A DNA stretch of 64,000 nucleotides from Planococcus wigleyi (GTDB taxonomy: Bacteria > Bacillota > Bacilli > Bacillales_A > Planococcaceae): assembly GCF_014836985.1 (NCBI RefSeq), contig NZ_JACSPU010000003.1, positions 434,001 through 498,000 of the forward strand. The letters are read 5' to 3'. Numbering within the stretch: the stretch's first letter is position 1; every line of letters begins with the position of its first letter. The position numbers were made by a program, and so were the translations under genes. Positions 52,790-63,778 of the stretch are shown here, one piece after another. Below the pieces are notes generated by a model, which did not search any database, was not told the DNA's origin, and saw only the letters and a list, made by a program, of their open reading frames with translations.

Positions 52790-54169
52790 GGTTCTCCGTC
52801 AAATGTTGGGGTGAGGTGAAAATCTCTTCACCCTAACCAACGTGAACTCCAATGTTCTTGTACTTGTGTGTCAAAAGTATTTTAGCACGGGCGCGTTCGA
52901 AATTCTGAAAACCGAACGCGTTCCGTTTGATGACTTTCGTCAGGTTATTGATGCCTTCCAGAAATCCGTTGGAATAAGGGAACGCAAAACTGTTCAAAAT
53001 CTCGGTTTGCCAATTCCGGAACGTGCCGATGGCTTTCTGGAACTCCGGAATGCCGGACGCCGTCACCAGCTGATAAAATTCAAGTAAGCCTGTTCTGGTC
53101 TCGAGGAGCTCCTCGGGATCTCTTTTTTTGCTTGCCTGGAACCAGAGGCAATACGCTTCCTTCAGTTCGTAAGCTCGTTTGAGCTCATCGTCCATTTCGA
53201 GATATCGCTTCAAGTACCAACGGTCCTCTTCCGTTAACTTCGCGCTGTTTTTGTAAAAGACATAGCGCATCCGTTTGCCCTTTTTCCGATCATAGTCGTT
53301 CCAGTTTTTCTGTACGCGCCGCCGGACCCCATCCTGGGCCCAGTAGATGTACCGGCAGAAATGGAAGCGGTCGGCGATGATCACCGGTTTGCCAAGTGCT
53401 TGGCGGACCGCGGCCTTAAAGGAAGGGCTCATGTCCATGATGACGATTTTCACCGCTGCCCCGTGCTGTTGGAGGTACTGTTTGATGGTCGCTTTTTTCC
53501 GGTTGGGCAGGATATCGATCGGTTCTCTCGTTTCGCCATTGGCGATAATCAGCTGGTATTTTCCTTCCCGCGTGTCGCCTTTGTATTCATCAATGGCGAT
53601 GACGTGCGGCAGTTTTGCGGTTTCCGCGACTTCCTGCAGCGCCACCCTGTCGAAACGCCGAACGATGGTCGAAGCGGAAGCGCCGTATTGCCCGGCCACT
53701 TCCTTGAATGTTTTCGCTTTGACGCTGCGCACCTGGACGGCCTGGTTCCACTCTTTGGAGAACCGCTGGTAACGCTCGATGAACGGGTTCTGTTCGGCGA
53801 ACTTCTTACCGCACGCCCCACACACGTATCGTCTCTTTTTGTAGAACAGGTAGGTCAGGCGTTCAAACCACTTGAGGTGCTTGATCTTCTGGATTCGGTA
53901 ATCATGGACGCGCCGGGTCTTCTCCTGGCAGCGCGGACACCGGTGTAGCTGCACCTCCAGCTCCACATGCAGGGCCACACGGTCCTCCACCTGTTCCATT
54001 TTTGTGATGATCACATCTTTTAAACCGGGAATATTCATGGTAAAATTCATGTGCACGCATCTCCTCTTTTTTTACTTGTTACTCGACATTTCAAGTATAA
54101 AAGAAGTTGGAGATTGCGTGCCTTTTTTTGGTTAAATTGTGTGAACACCCCAATATTTAGTGTAGAACC
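52790..54169 (-). mobile_element. Complete ISL3-family insertion sequence (1380 bp)
   Basis: The left end starts GGTTCTCCGTCAAATGTTGG and the right end, read inward, GGTTCTACACTAAATATTGG; both continue GGTG. The 24-bp inverted repeats differ at a few positions. One intact transposase gene fills the element, and a perfect 8-bp duplication (TAAAAAAA) flanks it, the size usual for ISL3. The element therefore appears recent and potentially active. Confidence 0.92.
52833..54050 (-). CDS. ISL3-family transposase
   Basis: A 405-aa transposase. An N-terminal zinc ribbon (CPRCQEKTRRVHDY and VCGACGKKFAE) and HTH precede a DDE catalytic core: IAIDEYKGD, VIMDMSPSFKAA and a C-terminal Glu in SNGFLEGINNLTKVIKRNAF. 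The ATG at 54050 gives the canonical MNFTMNIPGLKD start; an in-frame GTG at 54056 is closer to GAGGAG. No frameshift or stop is seen, so it appears functional. Confidence 0.92.
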   Translation of the reverse strand: MNFTMNIPGLKDVIITKMEQVEDRVALHVELEVQLHRCPRCQEKTRRVHDYRIQKIKHLKWFERLTYLFYKKRRYVCGACGKKFAEQNPFIERYQRFSKEWNQAVQVRSVKAKTFKEVAGQYGASASTIVRRFDRVALQEVAETAKLPHVIAIDEYKGDTREGKYQLIIANGETREPIDILPNRKKATIKQYLQQHGAAVKIVIMDMSPSFKAAVRQALGKPVIIADRFHFCRYIYWAQDGVRRRVQKNWNDYDRKKGKRMRYVFYKNSAKLTEEDRWYLKRYLEMDDELKRAYELKEAYCLWFQASKKRDPEELLETRTGLLEFYQLVTASGIPEFQKAIGTFRNWQTEILNSFAFPYSNGFLEGINNLTKVIKRNAFGFQNFERARAKILLTHKYKNIGVHVG

Positions 54170-54208: not shown

Positions 54209-55039
54209 TCAACTTAAACGTTCTTCTTGTTTCAATTGTTCGACGATGCCTTCGACTTCCTGGCGGCTCATCTTTTCTTTTCCGGATTTCAATGCTTTCA
54301 ACGTACTATGGGCTAAAGCTAACGGAACTTTACAGAACATGAGAATTCGTTTGTTTTTGATCGGCTTGACGTAAAGGTCTGCTTTTGCCAAATTGTCTTT
54401 AGCGTAGTTGAACATATCTTCGCGCGTCCAGCCTTCAGGAACAAACGTGACGCCCCGTTCGAAATCTTCATCGTAATTGCGCAGCATGTTGACAGCTTGC
54501 AATCCACGGCCGAAAGCAATGGCGTGGTCATCATTTGTTTCTGTTCCATCGTACCAGCGCCAGATATCCGAAAGCATCGTTCCGACAAGGCCAGCTACAT
54601 AATACGTATATTCATCCAGGTCTTCTTTTGTTTTGATAACCCAGTCCTTTTCAACCCATTTGGCCATGCCCCCGGCCATGATGGCAGTGGACTCCATCAC
54701 TTTTCCTCTTATTTCTTCAGGGCAGACACTGATCCAGTCAGCTAAACGCATAGTGACAGGGGGCAGGGATGCTTCATAAGGAGAAACGAGTTCCAAGTAG
54801 CGGATTTCATCAAAATCTGTAGCCAGCATTTCTTGAATGCTGCGCAGCAGGTTGATTTTCACTTGATCTTCAAGCTCCGGATGGTCTTCAATTTCATCAA
54901 TCGCCCGCATACAAAGATAAGCAGAACCGACTGTTTTCTTTAAGGTAGATTCCAAAAAGCTGATTGGGATGAAAAAGGTCCGGCTTGTTTCTTTCAGCAT
55001 AAGCAAGGACTCTTTCTGTAAATTCGAAACTTTGCTCAT
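54209..55039 (-). CDS. yisP: Squalene/phytoene synthase-fold protein (YisP-like)
   Basis: A 276-aa all-helical prenyl-diphosphate enzyme. The first Asp-rich motif is present (CMRAIDEIEDHPE). The second reads NMLRNYDEDFERG, with Asn where head-to-head synthases have the first Asp. B. subtilis YisP has a squalene-synthase fold but acts as a farnesyl-diphosphate phosphatase making farnesol for membrane microdomains, so that role is more likely than C30 carotenoid synthesis (inference). The ATG at 55039 has AGGAGG 8 nt upstream; an open frame to 55087 lacks one. Confidence 0.82.
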   Translation of the reverse strand: MSKVSNLQKESLLMLKETSRTFFIPISFLESTLKKTVGSAYLCMRAIDEIEDHPELEDQVKINLLRSIQEMLATDFDEIRYLELVSPYEASLPPVTMRLADWISVCPEEIRGKVMESTAIMAGGMAKWVEKDWVIKTKEDLDEYTYYVAGLVGTMLSDIWRWYDGTETNDDHAIAFGRGLQAVNMLRNYDEDFERGVTFVPEGWTREDMFNYAKDNLAKADLYVKPIKNKRILMFCKVPLALAHSTLKALKSGKEKMSRQEVEGIVEQLKQEERLS

Positions 55040-55177
55040 CTCAATTTCCTCCTGTTGTGGATTGACGTTTATTCTTCTTATGTACAAAAATTATCTGGTC
55101 TAAAAATGGCTTCCTACTAAATATAAACCATACAGGCGAAAAAACAAACGATTACCCATAAACGCCAACTTTTGAAT

Positions 55178-55226: not shown

Positions 55227-55949
55227 TCAGTCGGTATGGAAATGGTTCCAGGCTTCCAAGATGCCTCCTGCATATTTTTCTTTGGCTCGGTAAATGAATG
55301 GATGTTCTGCTTGTGCAAGCAATTCCGGTTGAGCGTTCCCGACGATGACAGATGGAAAACCCATCGTGAGCATTTCAACGTCATTTCCGGAATCACCAGC
55401 TACCAGCAATTTGGATTCGGCTAGTTGGTATTTGTCCAGAATATATTGAAGGGCTTGTCCTTTTCCGCTTCCTGGAGGAAGAACATCGACATCGCGGCCG
55501 CCGCTGTAAACGAGTTTATGTGGAATTTCGGCTCTATTCAGTGCTGAGCGAAATGCTTCCACAATAGCGGAATCGGACGTGATATAAGAACAGCGGTTAG
55601 TTAAAGGAAGATCTTGGGGAGTCAGCCCAGGTATGCGCTTGGCGATCTCCTTTACTTTTTCAGGCTGCCACCTTTCCTTCAGCTGTTCTGCCCATTCCAA
55701 ATCTGCTTCCAATGATTGGCCTGTGTAAATGCCAGTCCCGACGTCTGTAACCAGTACGTGAGGAACTGGTAAATTCTCTTCTTTTATCAAAGACAAGGCG
55801 GATTCATAATAGCGCCCAGTAATGTAAACCAGTGAAACCTTGTAGGTCTGGCTGTCGTAGAAGTCCAGCAATGCTTTTAAATTGCCTTTATCACCGACCA
55901 GCGTCCCGTCCAAATCTGTTGCTAACAAATGCGTTGCTCCGTGCACCAA
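55227..55949 (-). CDS. HAD-family phosphatase, sucrose-6-phosphate-phosphatase-like
   Basis: A 240-aa type-IIB HAD phosphatase. The nucleophile motif is LLATDLDGTLVGD, motif II VYITGRYYES, and motif IV LLVAGDSGNDVEML. Spacing and the VDVLPPGSGKGQAL block match sucrose-phosphate phosphatases (S6PP). It overlaps the upstream glycosyltransferase gene by 59 bp in another frame, with GAGGTGATC just before tandem TTG/GTG starts (55949/55946). Together they would make sucrose from UDP-glucose and fructose-6-P. Other sugar phosphates cannot be excluded. Confidence 0.78.
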   Translation of the reverse strand: MVHGATHLLATDLDGTLVGDKGNLKALLDFYDSQTYKVSLVYITGRYYESALSLIKEENLPVPHVLVTDVGTGIYTGQSLEADLEWAEQLKERWQPEKVKEIAKRIPGLTPQDLPLTNRCSYITSDSAIVEAFRSALNRAEIPHKLVYSGGRDVDVLPPGSGKGQALQYILDKYQLAESKLLVAGDSGNDVEMLTMGFPSVIVGNAQPELLAQAEHPFIYRAKEKYAGGILEAWNHFHTD

Positions 55950-57153
55950 TGATCACCTCATACAATGAATTTATCCGATTGGAAATTGAGTCCCAATCAA
56001 AGTCTTTACGGGCTATTTGTACCGCTTGTCGGCTTAAACGTTCAGTCAAAAGAGTATTTGCTGATAAAACACCCATGGCGATCGCCAAATCGATTTCGTT
56101 TTCTGTTTCGACCAGTAAGCCGGTAACGCCGTTTTGGACAACATTCTTCAAACCGCCGACATCTGATGCAATCACCGGACTGCCGCAAGCCTGGGCTTCC
56201 GCGGCAACCATTCCAAACGATTCGTAGAAGCTTGGTACGATTGTAGCTGTAGCTGAATTGAATAGCAACGCCAACTGTTCCTGAGACTGTGGCCCGATGA
56301 ATTCTACCATGTCTTCGATGCCTCTAACGGCTTCCCGTAATTTTTTATCTCTAGGCATTTTAGTTTCCAGGTCAATAGCTTCTGCATCTCCTCCTGCAAT
56401 AACCAGATGTGGAGTATTAGAAGAATCATTTTTTTCCACCAACAACTGAAAAGCTTTTAACAAAGTGAAAATGCCTTTGGTTACTTCCAATCTTCCGGCA
56501 AAGACAAAGAGGGGATTGCTGTAGCCAAATTTTTTGCGCAAATGCGCCCGGTTGCCACGCACTTTAAATGCCTGGTCCACTCCGATGGGGATAACTTTGA
56601 TGGGAGAAGGAGAATCAACAAATCTTTTAATCAGCTGCTTTTCGTTGTTGGTAGTGGCCAAGACCTGATCAGCATTTTTTAAAATTGCTTTTTCCGCATT
56701 GATGCGGCGCTGGTCATGGACTCCCGTTGCTTTTTCTTTTGCCCAGCCGAGTGAATGCGCAGTATGCACATAAGGCAGACCGAAGTCTTTCTTCAATTTT
56801 TTCCCGATTAGTCCTGATAACCAGTAATGGGTATGGGCAATGTCATAAGAATCAATATCTACCATGCTCTTCAACTCTTCGTAAAAAGCAGGGAGCATAG
56901 AATACATTTCGTCCTTAGAAACGAATCCTCTATGTCCAGCCTCAAGTCTAATGACGCGGCATGAATTTCCGAATTCTTCTATTTGAGGTGCTGAGGAATC
57001 GCACCAATGAGTTGCTACATCTACCTGCCAACCTTTATCTTCTAATGCAAGTGCTAGTTGTTTTACGTAATTATTTTGGCCGCCGGCTTGCTTTCCGCCT
57101 AACTTAGCCAGTGGATCGCCATGATCCGAAATAAATAATGCTTTTTTACTCAT
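55891..57153 (-). CDS. GT4 glycosyltransferase, sucrose-phosphate-synthase-like
   Basis: A 420-aa GT-B retaining glycosyltransferase. KLGGKQAGGQNNYVKQLALA is the donor-side Gly-rich loop of sucrose-phosphate/sucrose synthases. HTHYWLSGLIGKKLKK and YVHTAHSLGWAK follow, then FAGRLEVTKGIFTLLKAF and the E-X7-E motif in SFYESFGMVAAEAQACGSPV. It would transfer glucose from UDP-glucose to fructose-6-P; the following phosphatase would release sucrose, a compatible solute. The pairing is the best evidence. A related GT4 acceptor remains possible. Confidence 0.78.
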   Translation of the reverse strand: MSKKALFISDHGDPLAKLGGKQAGGQNNYVKQLALALEDKGWQVDVATHWCDSSAPQIEEFGNSCRVIRLEAGHRGFVSKDEMYSMLPAFYEELKSMVDIDSYDIAHTHYWLSGLIGKKLKKDFGLPYVHTAHSLGWAKEKATGVHDQRRINAEKAILKNADQVLATTNNEKQLIKRFVDSPSPIKVIPIGVDQAFKVRGNRAHLRKKFGYSNPLFVFAGRLEVTKGIFTLLKAFQLLVEKNDSSNTPHLVIAGGDAEAIDLETKMPRDKKLREAVRGIEDMVEFIGPQSQEQLALLFNSATATIVPSFYESFGMVAAEAQACGSPVIASDVGGLKNVVQNGVTGLLVETENEIDLAIAMGVLSANTLLTERLSRQAVQIARKDFDWDSISNRINSLYEVIIGARSNAFVSNRFGRDAGR

Positions 57154-58362: not shown

Positions 58363-58391
58363 TTGAGTCTCCTTGCTTACTGGATTAGAAT
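58363..58391 (+). promoter_or_regulatory. SigA promoter of the FAD oxidase / fusion operon
   Basis: TTGAGT (58363-58368), a 17-bp spacer and TAGAAT (58386-58391), 34 bp before the FAD oxidoreductase start. Confidence 0.65.
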
Positions 58392-58425
58392 GAAGACACA
58401 AGTCTTTGTGAAACTGGGTGTTTAA

Positions 58426-59541
58426 ATGAAATCATTGATTATTATTGGATCAGGAATACTAGGGGCTTCTGCTGCATATCATGCGGCTAAAGCCGGAGCA
58501 CAAGTACTATTGATAGATCGGGGCGACAAAGGGCAAGCTACGGGAGCGGCGGCAGGAATTGTCTGTCCATGGATTTCGCAACGGCGAAACAAAGCGTGGT
58601 ACGGACTGGCAAAGGGCGGTGCCAAATATTATCCGGAACTGATTCGTGAGCTGGAAGCTTTAGGGGAAACGGATACGGGTTATAAGCAAGTGGGAATCGT
58701 CAGTATCCATGAAGACAGCAAGCTGGATAAGATGGAGCAAAAAGCTCATGAACGGCGTGTAGATGCACCGGAAATGGGGGACATCCAGCGGTTGTCGCCG
58801 GATGAAACAAGAGAGCTCTTTCCATTTGCAACGGAAGAATATGGTTCGTTGTGGGTCAGCGGTGCCGCACGTGTCGATGGCCATGCCATTCGCGATGCGT
58901 TGATTTCAGCAGCTGTAAAACTGGGAGCGCGACGCCTGACAGGCAATGCGGAATTGCTTATCGAAGAATCACAGGTGATAGGGGTCACCATAGGCGGGGA
59001 ACGTTTGCTGGTAGATCGGGTCGCTTCAACAGGAGGCGCCTGGGCAGCTGACTTGTTCAAGCCTTTGGGGTTGGATTTGGACATTGTTCCTCAGAAAGCC
59101 CAAATCCTTCATTTGCAGGCGGAAGGACAGCCGACCGGCAACTGGCCGGTTGCAATGGTTCCTTACGGCCAATACATCGTCCCTTTTGATGACGGAAGAA
59201 TCGTGGCAGGAGCCACACATGAAAATGGCGCCGGTTTTAATGAGAAATTGACGGCAGGCGGCATGCACCACATTCTCGATAAAACATTGGAAGCAGCTCC
59301 AGGGCTTGCGGGGACTGAAATCGCGGGAGCGGCTACAGGCTTCCGCCCAGCAACGACAAGTGCCTTGCCCTTTATCGGACGAGTGCCGGGACAGCCCAAC
59401 TTTTTTGCAGCCAATGGTCTGGGAGCTTCAGGGTTGACCGCTGGACCTTACCTGGGAGGACAACTGGCAAAGCTGATGCTGGGGGAACCTGTTGATATCG
59501 ATTTGAGTCTTTATCAAGTAGAAGAAGCAATCAAGAGCTGA
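58426..59541 (+). CDS. FAD-dependent amino-acid oxidase-like oxidoreductase (DadA/DAO family)
   Basis: A 371-aa flavoenzyme of the DAO family. The N-terminal dinucleotide motif is IIIGSGILGASAAYHAAK, and residues 35-50 give DRGDKGQATGAAAGIVCPW. The C-terminal FAD block reads TGFRPATTSALPFIG and NGLGASGLTAGPYLGGQLA. Such enzymes oxidise D-amino acids, glycine, sarcosine or related amines. The ribosome site is weak (GGGTGT), so expression may be low. It shares an operon with the GNAT::aminotransferase fusion 17 bp downstream, suggesting work on the same amino compound. Confidence 0.85.
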   Translation: MKSLIIIGSGILGASAAYHAAKAGAQVLLIDRGDKGQATGAAAGIVCPWISQRRNKAWYGLAKGGAKYYPELIRELEALGETDTGYKQVGIVSIHEDSKLDKMEQKAHERRVDAPEMGDIQRLSPDETRELFPFATEEYGSLWVSGAARVDGHAIRDALISAAVKLGARRLTGNAELLIEESQVIGVTIGGERLLVDRVASTGGAWAADLFKPLGLDLDIVPQKAQILHLQAEGQPTGNWPVAMVPYGQYIVPFDDGRIVAGATHENGAGFNEKLTAGGMHHILDKTLEAAPGLAGTEIAGAATGFRPATTSALPFIGRVPGQPNFFAANGLGASGLTAGPYLGGQLAKLMLGEPVDIDLSLYQVEEAIKS

Positions 59542-59558
59542 AAAGGGGGCGGACAGCT

Positions 59559-61112
59559 ATGTATTGGTGCAAGATTGCCCGGACGCAAGCTGAATTCGAT
59601 GAGATTGCACGCCTGAATTATGAAACCTTTGTCGAAGAAATTCCCCAACATGAGAAGGAAGCCAGTGGTATGCGCACCGATCCTTTCCATGAGCAGAACA
59701 CCTACCTGATTGTATTGTCGGGGACGGACCTTGTGGGTATGATTGCGCTGCGTTCTGAGCGTCCTTTTTCTCTGGATCTGAAAATCGGGAAAGTTGAAGC
59801 ATTGTTGCCGGACGTCGGCCGCATCTGTGAAATTCGCCTATTGGCAGTCCGTAAAGAACACCGCAACGGCCGTGTCTTTTTCCTTTTAGCCAGCGCATTA
59901 TCCGATTTCTGCCTGGAGCTGGGCTTTGACTCGGCAGTCATTTCCGGAACGACTCGGCAATTGAAGCTGTATGGCCAATTGGGTTTTCGGCCATTTGCGG
60001 ATCCGGTTGGAAAGGGTGAAGCCATCTTTATTCCAATGGTCACCACTGTAAGCCAATACAACGCTTCTGTCGCAGCAAGGCTGCAGGTGAAACGCCGGTT
60101 GTTCGTCCCTGGACCTGTCGCATTAACTGCGCAGCTGGGGGAACCTTTTCAACAACCGCCGGTTTCCCACCGGTCAGCGGCTTTCCACAACATTCGGAAG
60201 GAAGTGGACCGCTTGCTCTATGGCATGGCAGGCTCGACGCCTTATTTGCTCGCTGGAAGCGGAACCTTGGCCAATGAAGCGATGCTTTCACAAATCAAGC
60301 GGCTGGACGCTAAAGGTCTGGTTCTGGTAAACGGGGAATTTGGCAGGAGACTGGCCAATCAGGCAGAACGCCTCAACTTGGATTTTAAAGTGAAGGAAGA
60401 AGTCTGGGGCCAGGCATTTGATTTTGACATGATAGCGGAACAGCTGGGTGCGGAAGGGTATGGCTGGGTGCTGATGGTTCATGGTGAAACCTCAACCGGC
60501 CAACTGAACGATTTTCGTCGGTTGGCGAATGTCTGTAAACAGCAGAAGATCCGGCTATGTCTGGACTGTATCAGCAGTTTTGGCGCATTGCCATTTTCGT
60601 TGGAAAATGTCTGGATGGCGACCGCGGCAAGCGGCAAGGCCATCGGAACAATGAGTGGAATCGCCATCGTCTTTGCCCACCATGAGATTCAACCGGATCC
60701 CAACTTGCCGAGCTATTTGGATTTGGGACTTTATTTCGCCAATATTCCGTTTACGTTTCCTGCCAGTTTGCTGGAAAGCCTGAAGCGGGCATTAGGCGCT
60801 TACCCCTTGCGCTGGGAGCTTTTGGAGCGGCGCTTCAGGCAGCTGGAAGCAGATACAAAGGAATGGCCTGTGCTGGCTGCCGGTTACCCGACATCCCGGA
60901 CTTTCCAGACAACAACCAACACTGAATTTTTGGCTCAGGATGCCCATTTATCAGGATTTGAGCTTCATTCAGCAAGTGGTTATTTGAGGGAACGTGGTCT
61001 TTTCCAGGTATCCTGCATCCAGCCGGAATTTGAAAAAGACTGGGCGCAGTTCCTGGAATTCCACGATTGTTATCAGCGTTATCATACAACAGCAAAAGCC
61101 CGCCATAGTTGA
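59559..61112 (+). CDS. GNAT-like acyltransferase :: class-V aminotransferase fusion
   Basis: A 517-aa two-domain protein. Residues 1-168 are a GNAT-like/autoinducer-synthase-like acyltransferase: FDEIARLNYETFVEEIPQHE, ICEIRLLAVRKEHRNGRVFF, and TTRQLKLYGQLGFRPFADP. Residues 185-505 are a fold-type-I PLP aminotransferase of class V (alanine-glyoxylate/phosphonate-type): FVPGPVALTAQ, GSGTLANEAML, HGETSTGQLNDF, Asp336 in DCISSFGAL and PLP-Lys360 in ASGKAIGTM. AAAGGGGGCG precedes the ATG. The combination would join transamination with N-acylation; product unknown. I know no characterised homologue. Confidence 0.8.
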   Translation: MYWCKIARTQAEFDEIARLNYETFVEEIPQHEKEASGMRTDPFHEQNTYLIVLSGTDLVGMIALRSERPFSLDLKIGKVEALLPDVGRICEIRLLAVRKEHRNGRVFFLLASALSDFCLELGFDSAVISGTTRQLKLYGQLGFRPFADPVGKGEAIFIPMVTTVSQYNASVAARLQVKRRLFVPGPVALTAQLGEPFQQPPVSHRSAAFHNIRKEVDRLLYGMAGSTPYLLAGSGTLANEAMLSQIKRLDAKGLVLVNGEFGRRLANQAERLNLDFKVKEEVWGQAFDFDMIAEQLGAEGYGWVLMVHGETSTGQLNDFRRLANVCKQQKIRLCLDCISSFGALPFSLENVWMATAASGKAIGTMSGIAIVFAHHEIQPDPNLPSYLDLGLYFANIPFTFPASLLESLKRALGAYPLRWELLERRFRQLEADTKEWPVLAAGYPTSRTFQTTTNTEFLAQDAHLSGFELHSASGYLRERGLFQVSCIQPEFEKDWAQFLEFHDCYQRYHTTAKARHS

Positions 61113-61127
61113 TGGCGGGCTTTTGCT
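61091..61127. terminator. Bidirectional terminator between convergent genes
   Basis: A 16-bp perfect stem, AGCAAAAGCCCGCCAT (61091-61106) with its complement (61112-61127). It overlaps the stop of the fusion gene and the minus-strand regulator's stop. Confidence 0.93.
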
Positions 61128-62349
61128 ATGCGGTCATTTGCTCATAGACTTTCAGGATGAGCGTTTTGTGTGGCGAATCGGGCATGGGCTGGATCAGCTC
61201 TTTAGCGATTGTGACATGCTTTAGCGCCAATTCATTTTGGCCAAGCTCTGCATAAACCAGTGCCAGATAAGCGTCTTTTTCATAATGAACCGATAAATCA
61301 TAAGGGTGGTGCAAGAACTCCCAAAGCTTATGTTTATTCAGCCATATCAAAGCATCTTCGAACTGTTCAAGCCCGTACAAGGCTTTTCCTTTTTCCAATG
61401 CGAATAAAAAGATGCTGTCTTCCGGATGTTTTTCCAAGTTCTTTTCAACTAAAGCCATGGCTTTTTCGTAGTCGTGAGCAAAAGAATTCAGGTAATGGAT
61501 TTCAAGGGCATCCGCAACCGCGTTGATTTCTTCGTCATCGGTAAAATCAGCGAACAGGCGAAGCTTGGAAATGTAGAAATCCTTATTGACGATATCTCCG
61601 TTCAAGATAGCCTGAAACCCAGCCAAGCGATAAAGCGCATCAATTCGGTAAAACAGCTGTTGTTCTTTGGAGTAAGTGATGGCTTCTTCCATTAAACGTT
61701 TCGAGTTTTCTCCATCTCCGACAGCTGAGTAAAGAATAGACTCGTAATAATCAAAATCCAATTTCTTCAAGGGATCCAACATGCCGGTGCGTTCTTCAAA
61801 AGTGCTCCGGGATTCCTGGATGATGGTCAGGGCTTCCTTATAGCGATGTTCTGTGAAAGCCATTAATGCCCGGAAAATGTAAAGGTCAGCACTTTGATTG
61901 ATCATGTGCAGGCTTTCGTAAATTTCTTCAGCCTGTGCTAAAGGGATTTGCCAATCATTCTGCTTGGTATGGTAGCTGCAACGGCTGTAGATTTCAAGGA
62001 GCCGTGCAGATTCGTAGCGAAAAGGCAGTTTGTCAATATAAGGTTTTATTTTGCCGGCAATTTTTTTGTACTTTATGATCAGCTCATTGCTGATCATTTC
62101 TTGCGTATAAAGTTGTTCAATCTCTTTTAATAAATCTCGCAATTCATGGGTCGGAATGTCTGCCAGCAATTCGTTTCGGTCCACTTCCAAGCGTTCAGCT
62201 ATATAAGCAAGGCTTTCCATGGAAGGGTTTGCCTTATTGTTTTCAATCAAACTCAGCATGCCTTTTGTCAGCTGGTCGCCTGCCAGAGCCTGCAGTGTTA
62301 ATCCTCTTTGTTTGCGTAAATTTCGGATGCGTTCACCCAAAGTAGCCAT
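61126..62349 (-). CDS. XRE-family regulator with TPR repeats
   Basis: A 407-aa protein. Residues 5-60 are an HTH_3 domain: LGERIRNLRKQRGLTLQALA and KGMLSLIENNKANPSMESLA. Residues 75-405 are a long array of helical TPR-like repeats (AEEIYESLHMINQSADLYIF, ALYGLEQFEDALIWLNKHK, ALVYAELGQNELALKHV). This is the layout of peptide- or ligand-sensing RNPP-like regulators, though no signal peptide gene was seen. It is divergent from the MFS gene across two identical operators, so likely controls both. Confidence 0.87.
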   Translation of the reverse strand: MATLGERIRNLRKQRGLTLQALAGDQLTKGMLSLIENNKANPSMESLAYIAERLEVDRNELLADIPTHELRDLLKEIEQLYTQEMISNELIIKYKKIAGKIKPYIDKLPFRYESARLLEIYSRCSYHTKQNDWQIPLAQAEEIYESLHMINQSADLYIFRALMAFTEHRYKEALTIIQESRSTFEERTGMLDPLKKLDFDYYESILYSAVGDGENSKRLMEEAITYSKEQQLFYRIDALYRLAGFQAILNGDIVNKDFYISKLRLFADFTDDEEINAVADALEIHYLNSFAHDYEKAMALVEKNLEKHPEDSIFLFALEKGKALYGLEQFEDALIWLNKHKLWEFLHHPYDLSVHYEKDAYLALVYAELGQNELALKHVTIAKELIQPMPDSPHKTLILKVYEQMTA

Positions 62350-62371
62350 TAACTCACCTGTCCTTTCGATA

Positions 62372-62442
62372 GTTTAATTATATTAAACTTTTTATTGCAA
62401 TGCTAGTTTTCTCGTGTTATATTTTGTTTAATTAAATTAAAC
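62372..62442. promoter_or_regulatory. Divergent promoters with two 17-bp operators
   Basis: GTTTAATTATATTAAAC (62372-62388) and GTTTAATTAAATTAAAC (62426-62442) differ at one central base. Site 1 contains the minus-strand -10 TATAAT of the regulator (weak -35 TAGCAT at 62400-62405). Site 2 covers the expected start of the MFS transcript, whose promoter is TTGCAA-N17-TATATT (62395-62423). The sites are 54 bp apart. Confidence 0.83.
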
Positions 62443-62464
62443 TTTCACTGGGGAGTGGAAAAGA

Positions 62465-63757
62465 ATGAATGAGGCAGCACGCATCAAACAAGCAAGTTAT
62501 CATCTGTATACGTTTACAGCCAGCAAGTTGATTTCGACATTCGGCAGTTCTGTCTACGCATTTGGCATCAGTTTATACGTATTGGCGTTAACTGGATCAG
62601 CTGCGAGTTTCGCGATTAATTTGATCTGCAGCATTTTGCCGCGATCGCTACTGGCGCCTTTTGCAGGGTACACCGCGGATAAGTATTCGAAAAAAACCAT
62701 CGTCGTTCTGTCTCAAGTGGTCAGTATGCTGTCAGTTGCAGGATTGCTCATTTACAGCCTGCTGAATGGCTTATCACTGACGGCCATTTACACAACGACT
62801 GCGCTGCTGTCCATCAGTTCTATGTTTACCGGTGTCACATTTTCTTCTTCAATCGCCAATCTGATTGACCCAGACCGAATCCAACGGGCAATGGGCTTTA
62901 ACCAATCAGCGATTTCCATCGCTGCAATCGGTGGGCCGGTGGTCGGTGGCATGCTCTTTGGATTTGTTTCGATGAATGTCTTTTTAATGATCCAAGTGTC
63001 AGCTTATGCGATTGCGGTTCTGCTGGAGTCGACAATGAACTTCAAGTTGTACACCGTCCGCGCTGAACGAGCAGTAGGCGAAGCGACAAAGACCATGATG
63101 ACAGAAATGAAAGAAGGATTCTCTTATTTAAAATCCAATCGCGTCATAACCGTTATTGTAACGGTTGCTATTGGCATCAATTTCTTTTTCTCCTCTATGA
63201 TGATCGGTTTGCCCTTTATCGCAGTTCAGCAATTAAATGTAAAAGCCACGCATTTTGGGATGATTGAAGCGATGATCGCAGTAGGGATGCTGGCAGCTTC
63301 CATCTATTTTTCAATCAGCAAGGAAGTGAGATTTCCTTTGCTGTTTGCTAAGAGGGGAATACTGGGGATGTCCGTGTTGCTTGCGGGGATGGCAATTCCT
63401 TTAATTGTTGGCATGTCCTATGGGGTAATGGTCGTTTATTTCCTGTTGCTCATGCTGACTTTCGGTATGACAAACGTGTTTGTCAACACGCCGATTGGTG
63501 TCATGATGCAGAAAGATGTGGATGAGGAATACCGCGGTCGTGTTTTCGGCATTCTCGAATCGATGGCGATGGCTATGATGCCGCTCGGTTATCTTTTATT
63601 CGGCTTGCTGTATGATGTGGTGCCGGCAGAATATGTGGTAGGGGCAAGCAGCTTTTGCCTTATTGTGTTAACCGGATACTTGATGCGCCCGTCCGTTCTT
63701 AAGGAAGCCCATCCGGAGCTGCAAAAGAATCTTTCAAATCAGCCAGAACCTCTGTGA
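62465..63757 (+). CDS. MFS efflux transporter
   Basis: A 430-aa major facilitator with 12 hydrophobic segments, of the macrolide/antibiotic-exporter (MFS_3) type. The loop 2-3 motif reads APFAGYTADKYSKKTIVVLS, and NTPIGVMMQKDVDEEYRGRV between helices 10 and 11 is typical of this group. GGGGAGTGG precedes the ATG. Its promoter region holds two copies of a palindrome shared with the divergent XRE-TPR regulator, suggesting the exporter responds to the regulator's ligand. Confidence 0.87.
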   Translation: MNEAARIKQASYHLYTFTASKLISTFGSSVYAFGISLYVLALTGSAASFAINLICSILPRSLLAPFAGYTADKYSKKTIVVLSQVVSMLSVAGLLIYSLLNGLSLTAIYTTTALLSISSMFTGVTFSSSIANLIDPDRIQRAMGFNQSAISIAAIGGPVVGGMLFGFVSMNVFLMIQVSAYAIAVLLESTMNFKLYTVRAERAVGEATKTMMTEMKEGFSYLKSNRVITVIVTVAIGINFFFSSMMIGLPFIAVQQLNVKATHFGMIEAMIAVGMLAASIYFSISKEVRFPLLFAKRGILGMSVLLAGMAIPLIVGMSYGVMVVYFLLLMLTFGMTNVFVNTPIGVMMQKDVDEEYRGRVFGILESMAMAMMPLGYLLFGLLYDVVPAEYVVGASSFCLIVLTGYLMRPSVLKEAHPELQKNLSNQPEPL

Positions 63758-63778
63758 AAACAGAAGTTCTGGTTTTTT
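63743..63778 (+). terminator. Intrinsic terminator of the MFS gene
   Basis: CCAGAACCTCTG (63743-63754) pairs with CAGAAGTTCTGG (63761-63772), one mismatch, with the stop codon at the loop; then TTTTTT. Confidence 0.88.

Follow-up and report, generated by a model that had tools for sequence, protein, structure and literature searches.

A FeeM/LuxI-type acyltransferase fused to a class-V pyridoxal phosphate domain in Planococcus: recurrent association with a PlsY-like acyltransferase and a possible role in amide-lipid synthesis

The stretch of DNA analysed here (the window) comprises 64,000 nucleotides from Planococcus wigleyi (assembly GCF_014836985.1, contig NZ_JACSPU010000003.1, positions 434,001 to 498,000), a genome whose nearest named relatives are Planococcus and Planomicrobium. 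Near its end, on the forward strand, lies a gene (59559-61112) for a 517-residue fusion enzyme that is the subject of this work: according to Pfam, sequence matches in the PDB, an AlphaFold2 model and fold matches, it joins a FeeM/LuxI-type GNAT acyltransferase domain to a class-V pyridoxal 5'-phosphate (PLP) aminotransferase-fold domain. It is preceded by a forward-strand gene for a DAO-family flavin adenine dinucleotide (FAD) oxidase (58426-59541; PF01266, E 7.8e-59), with a gap of 17 base pairs (bp), and it converges with a reverse-strand gene for an XRE-TPR regulator (61126-62349). The regulator gene is in turn divergent from a forward-strand gene for a major facilitator superfamily (MFS) transporter (62465-63757), which is TIGR00900-like and scores under the TIGR00900 cut-off. 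A sequence-only reading of the window had described these four genes, and their orientations, spacing and approximate positions agree with that description. A perfect 14-bp inverted repeat (61092-61105 and 61113-61126, without strand), read from the sequence, spans the ends of both converging genes and is likely a shared bidirectional terminator.

The fusion is one open frame, as that reading had it, and was found as a single protein in 163 of the 261 genomes of the order (15 of 19 genera; profile A2, E 1e-50; one match per genome, with interruptions or missing parts in a few of the copies), and it can therefore not be put down to an assembly error. In the class sample, it was detected in 51 of 398 genomes, spread over seven families. 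Two genomes have the gene split into two matches (G033:C1:453658-455182 and G471:C1:126087-127522), and there it may be decaying. Among 36 genomes of the genus, 21 carry a fusion from the clade of the window's gene, 8 one from a clade about 42% identical, 7 neither and 0 both (Fisher 2e-4, kinship not corrected); these data suggest that the two clades do the same job. No report of the fusion, or of a PlsY/FeeM/aminotransferase operon, was found among the matches listed, by title and beginning of abstract, from the open-licence PubMed Central (PMC) literature (in one search, 20 of 99).

The GNAT domain (approximately residues 1-172; 59559-60074, forward strand) matches, within residues 16-149, PF13444 (E 4.5e-9, 37.3 bits against a cut-off of 22.4), the FeeM family PF21926 (31.7 bits, over the gathering cut-off of 27) and also PF00583, and a distant relative reaches 34.7 bits against PF21926. 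No Pfam autoinducer-synthase match was obtained in the fusion at E 1e-3. Sequence matches of this half in the PDB are weak (BjaI, E 0.004), and profile-based ones are to SACOL1063 (E 0.0028) and BjaI (E 0.0048). The VIA-align rows obtained with the complete model dealt largely with the PLP domain, and a separate model was therefore computed for the GNAT half (predicted local distance difference test score, pLDDT, 89.7). The best Foldseek match of this model is BjaI (E 2.8e-10), with FeeM and LasI in the top ten, and its Z values are 18.6 for TofI, 18.4 for FeeM (2g0b; root-mean-square deviation 2.8 over 165 residues) and 17.9 for LasI, over 165-170 residues; the ordinary GNAT 5jph gives an equal Z of 18.4 over 142 residues. 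By sequence and predicted fold, this half is therefore of the acyl-homoserine-lactone synthase/FeeM type, in agreement with the autoinducer-synthase-like domain first proposed for it. It differs from the LuxI-type synthases BjaI, TofI and LasI, whose fold it resembles, in the missing Pfam autoinducer-synthase match, and from FeeM, whose domain and fold it shares, in being attached to a PLP enzyme, the solved FeeM chains being 170-189 residues long and without a PLP domain. Residues E91, R93 and R102 are conserved in 67 of 67 fusion proteins. In the alignment, the fusion family has R-V-F where the acetyltransferase SACOL1063 has its Gly-rich loop, a difference that is compatible with an acyl carrier protein (ACP)-bound acyl donor, though it is not proof of one.

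The second domain (approximately residues 178-517; 60090-61109, forward strand) has a PF00266 match at residues 208-378. In the AlphaFold2 model of the whole fusion (pLDDT 89.5; predicted template modelling score 0.86), it aligns with class-V folds, including PhnW, PucG, AGT and the PntC-AEPT fusion, with Z of about 34-38 over about 320-350 residues and a maximum of 37.6; sequence and model together place it among the class-V fold type I PLP enzymes. The Schiff-base Lys360, Asp336 and His308 are kept in all 67 fusion proteins. Position 483, the usual place of a substrate-binding Arg, is Gln in 66 of the 67, the remaining protein (L052) ending before the site. An Arg of a FRIG-type motif occupies the equivalent position in the three PDB alignments that reach it (PhnW 1m32, 7e7g and 9os7) and in two of two single-domain relatives, and in such enzymes this Arg binds the acid group of the substrate. 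The best NCBIfam match of the domain is TIGR03301 (PhnW-AepZ), at 121.7 bits against a cut-off of 360.8, and on both this score and the absent FRIG Arg the PLP half is not PhnW. It shares its fold with the 2-aminoethylphosphonate transaminase PhnW and with the PntC-AEPT fusion (6pd1) at Z of about 36-37, and the latter is a precedent for such a domain being fused to the enzyme that uses its amine.

The most widespread gene partner of the fusion is a PlsY-like acyltransferase (PF02660). Open reading frame (ORF) clustering covered 60 loci, 58 of them with the fusion, and in 24 of the 58 this gene immediately precedes the fusion in the same orientation; 27 loci had been retrieved with the window's own protein as query, which means that these shares are no random survey. 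In 23 of the 24 linked loci, the PlsY-like gene overlaps the fusion or lies at most 11 bp from it, by ORF coordinates that use the earliest start codon and hence overstate the overlaps. A further locus, L087, is a 25th case, with the gene directly upstream; it was missed by the clustering and is treated as unlinked in the 58-locus count and in the fusion tree. The gene is also upstream in four of four further loci and is linked in 17 of 30 class-sample loci, including families f11, f16, f41, f44 and f57, some of the 30 repeating genomes already counted. On the fusion tree (54 sequences, 16 loci being omitted as near-duplicates or truncated, with L067 and L193 the same gene), linkage needs 5 changes against 17.9 for shuffled labels. 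The unlinked fusions form a few branches among the linked ones, and the branch with the window's type, which has 15 members, contains no linked copy. The pairing with a PlsY-like acyltransferase, seen in many genomes, is a further difference between the fusion and FeeM.

A tree of 89 PF02660 proteins resolves housekeeping PlsY, a clade C and a clade B (support 99/91), the last holding the 24 linked copies together with unlinked copies of genera g1, g36, g37 and g43; the copies of L106, L110 and L111 are absent from this tree and were typed by profile score only. Clade B was found in 28 of 28 fusion-bearing genomes (21 linked and 7 unlinked; the G076 copy, one of the linked ones, is broken, and it and the G264 copy were typed by position only) against 16 of 32 genomes that lack the fusion (typing was by sequence for 13 of these; G064, G072 and G073 were counted as fusion-less with clade B from match coordinates only), a difference with a Fisher value of 4e-6, kinship not corrected. 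The sampled fusion-less genomes of g27, g31, g32, g38 and g42 are without clade B, except for a 48-residue fragment in G105, and fusion-bearing members of the same five genera have it. Copies of PF02660 were typed in eight genomes with an unlinked fusion (G009 and G025 previously, and six new ones), and a clear clade-B copy is located elsewhere in five of the six new genomes. The clade-B gene of the window's own genome (G000:C10:33067-33582; L072:8029-8622) adjoins a DegV/FakB-family gene (the pair spanning L072:7076-8622), and a DegV/FakB-family neighbour accompanies most of the unlinked clade-B copies of g1, g36 and g37 that were read with their surroundings. The parts of PMC10146087 and PMC12594616 consulted describe acyl-phosphate supply from FakAB to PlsY, and this neighbour is compatible with such a supply to the clade-B enzyme.

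The linked PlsY-like proteins score over the PF02660 cut-off of Pfam, as the glycerol-3-phosphate acyltransferase PlsY does, but they form a separate clade and differ at residues described for aaPlsY (PMC5700162, in the part consulted), which we mapped by motif. Among 62 clade-B rows, representing 60 distinct sequences, Thr41 is replaced by Arg in 60 and Asn180 is kept in 19; Ser35 (61), His177 (56), Lys104 (54) and Arg45 (40) are more often retained. Housekeeping copies keep both Thr41 and Asn180 in five of five cases. In aaPlsY, changing Thr41 to Ala was severe and changing Asn180 to Asp lost >95% of activity, according to the same part of PMC5700162, and because these two residues are altered, the clade-B enzymes may well use an acceptor other than glycerol-3-phosphate. 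Clade C had been considered as the partner tracking the fusion (G000:C14:585661) and was dropped, since the tree separates it from the linked copies and its neighbours are different. Its representative on contig 14 of the window's genome (L071:7599-8246) is a further non-housekeeping PlsY, and clade C has its own pattern: all 30 proteins keep Lys104, His177 and Asn180 and have another residue at Arg45, and 27 of the 30 also have one at Ser35.

Two other neighbours recur. In 11 of 58 loci, all Psychrobacillus-type, ABC-2 transporter genes (Pfam) immediately precede the fusion, and in 5 of 58 a lipoteichoic acid (LTA)-synthase-like gene (PF00884; named from a plasmid annotation) immediately follows it; both are compatible with a lipid or an exported lipid-like product. 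A gene for a bacterial nitric oxide synthase oxygenase (L053:11260-12402) was also noted two genes 3' of the fusion in Bacillus mediterraneensis.

From the architecture, predicted fold, distribution, linkage and altered pockets, we infer the donors, amine, step order and product of a possible pathway. Sequence and model make an N-acylated amino compound the likely product of the fusion, and we give about an even chance to a two-step pathway that begins with the fusion and leads to an amide-containing lipid. The PLP domain would form or load an amine, the FeeM/LuxI-type domain would add a fatty acyl chain to it, probably from acyl-ACP, and the clade-B PlsY-like enzyme would add a second chain from acyl-phosphate. 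Known aminolipids are likewise made in two steps, N-acylation and then O-acylation, as set out in the consulted part of PMC11631085. The OlsB/OlsA, GlsB/GlsA and OlsF systems treated there share with the fusion system a PF13444-type N-acyltransferase and a lipid acyltransferase partner; in the OlsB/OlsA type this partner is PlsC-like, whereas here it is PlsY-like and the fusion carries a PLP domain of its own. No PlsC-like partner was found among the recurrent neighbours of the fusion, where PF02660 occurs instead; unlinked PlsC-like enzymes were not searched. The fusion is thus FeeM/PF13444 by domain and class-V PLP by fold, and on the criterion of a PlsC-like partner it is not of the OlsB/OlsA type.

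Several observations weigh against this pathway. In the window's genome the PlsY-like partner is unlinked to the fusion, and in the window's branch of the fusion tree its commoner neighbours are the XRE-TPR and MFS genes. Within the genus, a clade-B copy is present in 27 of 27 genomes, whether they have the fusion or not, as judged by match position and, for 7 of them, by sequence as well; the half of the fusion-less genomes that have clade B includes sampled members of g26, g28, g34, g36 and g37. In genome G362, whose fusion is unlinked, the housekeeping copy is accompanied by no more than a weak, partial match to PF02660, and the branches of L067 and L070 in the PF02660 tree are long. The second-step enzymes of known aminolipids, as far as the consulted part of PMC11631085 covers them, are PlsC-like and not PlsY-like. 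The PLP pocket is altered, so the PLP half could perhaps be no transaminase.

The sequence-only reading had tentatively combined these four genes into one cassette, in which the oxidase and the fusion would make an N-acyl compound, the XRE-TPR protein sense it and the MFS protein export it, though it allowed that the regulator might be a mere neighbour of the biosynthetic pair. Two regularities favour such an arrangement: the oxidase lies 15-18 bp 5' of the fusion in 24 of 24 loci measured, and, as its best point, the XRE-TPR gene recurs beside the fusion in several genera, namely Planococcus, Paenisporosarcina, Psychrobacillus and g43; of 58 loci, 18 have it nearby and 14 directly adjoining in convergent orientation. 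Presence and absence within the conserved backbone of the genus lead us to reject it. Of 27 genomes of the genus (G000-G026), all have the oxidase, 26 the regulator and 14 the window's fusion type, and in 13 of 13 genomes without the fusion the oxidase and regulator matches stand side by side, 54-393 bp apart; in the four of these loci that were read fully, MFS and the flanking genes are also kept. Conversely, of the 21 fusion loci from the genus, 4 have within 1.5 kb downstream a partial regulator match (L005, L007) or none (L009, L011), and 2 of 11 Psychrobacillus-type loci (L040, L051) are without regulator and MFS. The XRE-TPR-near loci present in the fusion tree all fall on one branch, and three of them, of Psychrobacillus type, have intervening genes. 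Co-occurrence of the four genes was the check proposed for the cassette, and by ORF clustering the oxidase is near the fusion in only 4 of 58 loci, all Planococcus or Planomicrobium; outside Planococcus, the four are not neighbours. The operator-like sites, finally, are confined to the interval between regulator and MFS. We consider the cassette very unlikely, the recurrence of the XRE-TPR gene beside the fusion having raised our estimate only marginally.

These sites are two 17-bp palindromes with a central base, without strand, in the interval 62350-62464: a left box, GTTTAATTATATTAAAC (62372-62388), and a right box, GTTTAATTAAATTAAAC (62426-62442), 54 bp apart. In a list of 37 loci that contains some genomes twice, 34 have an exact left box, and the spacing to the right box is always 54 bp; the pair is conserved across Planococcus, Psychrobacillus and Paenisporosarcina. 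Elsewhere in the window's genome there are no exact sites, and 13 weaker matches compare with 8 for a reversed control pattern; a search for even-length palindromes gave no match. Because exact operator-like sites lie only between these genes, the XRE-TPR protein most likely regulates itself and the MFS gene through these putative operators, and the two genes are most likely a separate, compact, self-regulated efflux module outside the fusion pathway.

Apart from the cassette, the oxidase could act in this genus as a supplier, providing a keto acid or aldehyde such as glyoxylate to the PLP domain in a two-gene pathway to an N-acyl amino acid, for instance N-acylglycine. It is related to glycine oxidases, with 6pxs, which we take to be an iminodiacetate oxidase, as its nearest match; the class-V relatives of the PLP half include glyoxylate aminotransferases, and the oxidase-fusion spacing is constant. 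The oxidase is nevertheless away from the fusion in 54 of 58 loci and is kept in the 13 genomes of the genus that have no fusion at the locus, and a PLP pocket without the Arg speaks against a simple keto acid, which makes this supply rather improbable. What was first suggested of these two enzymes, that together they may make an N-acyl amino compound, is supported as regards the likely N-acylated product; the oxidase is probably not part of the core pathway and may contribute to the fusion pathway in this genus. A phosphonate pathway, in which 2-aminoethylphosphonate would be the substrate of the PhnW-like domain, its N-alkylated forms those of the oxidase, and the resulting product would be N-acylated by the GNAT domain, draws on the best NCBIfam match and on the presence of PhnW and the PntC-AEPT fusion among the nearest folds. 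It is most improbable, given the score far under the TIGR03301 cut-off and the Gln at the position of the FRIG-motif Arg; moreover, a phosphoenolpyruvate mutase over the curated cut-off was found in 0 of 16 fusion-bearing genomes (sub-threshold in 6 of 16) and in 0 of 14 controls, a search that had no positive control. Finally, the fusion might make a soluble or secreted N-acyl amino compound (a surfactant, antibiotic or signal), with the PlsY-like enzyme and the Psychrobacillus ABC-2 proteins modifying and exporting it. FeeM and LuxI relatives do produce released molecules, the ABC-2 genes adjoin the fusion upstream, and its distribution in the order is patchy. The most widespread partner is, however, a phospholipid-type acyltransferase of PF02660, and the sole recurrent nearby regulator, XRE-TPR, is limited to a few genera and has its own operator-like sites, so that we regard a secreted compound as unlikely.

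Further upstream in the window, a sucrose-6-phosphate-phosphatase-like gene overlaps a GT4 glycosyltransferase gene (55227-57153), and a squalene/phytoene synthase gene (54209-55087) stands beside this pair; the three are perhaps concerned with the synthesis of a sucrose-type solute or a glyco-terpenoid. An ISL3-family transposase gene (52833-54056) lies directly 3' of the squalene/phytoene synthase gene.

Returning to the two-step amide-lipid pathway, a more specific and quite doubtful form of it would yield an undescribed class of lipids with an amide in the place of a glycerol ester. Here a small carbonyl compound free of carboxylate would be aminated by the PLP domain, as in the conversion of dihydroxyacetone phosphate into serinol phosphate, and then N-acylated by the FeeM-type domain. 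Acylation of the remaining hydroxyl by the altered PlsY would lead to a phosphatidic acid analogue with an amide, which the LTA-synthase-like or ABC-2 partners would decorate or move. The Gln in place of Arg in the PLP half and the altered pocket of the PlsY-like enzyme are compatible with such an analogue, though no proof of it. If the amide-lipid reading is true, a large share of the order and some other Bacilli would carry an unrecognized lipid pathway, one that links the formation of an amine with its N-acylation and with a second, acyl-phosphate-dependent acylation. The tempting interpretation of this locus as one of quorum sensing is also corrected.

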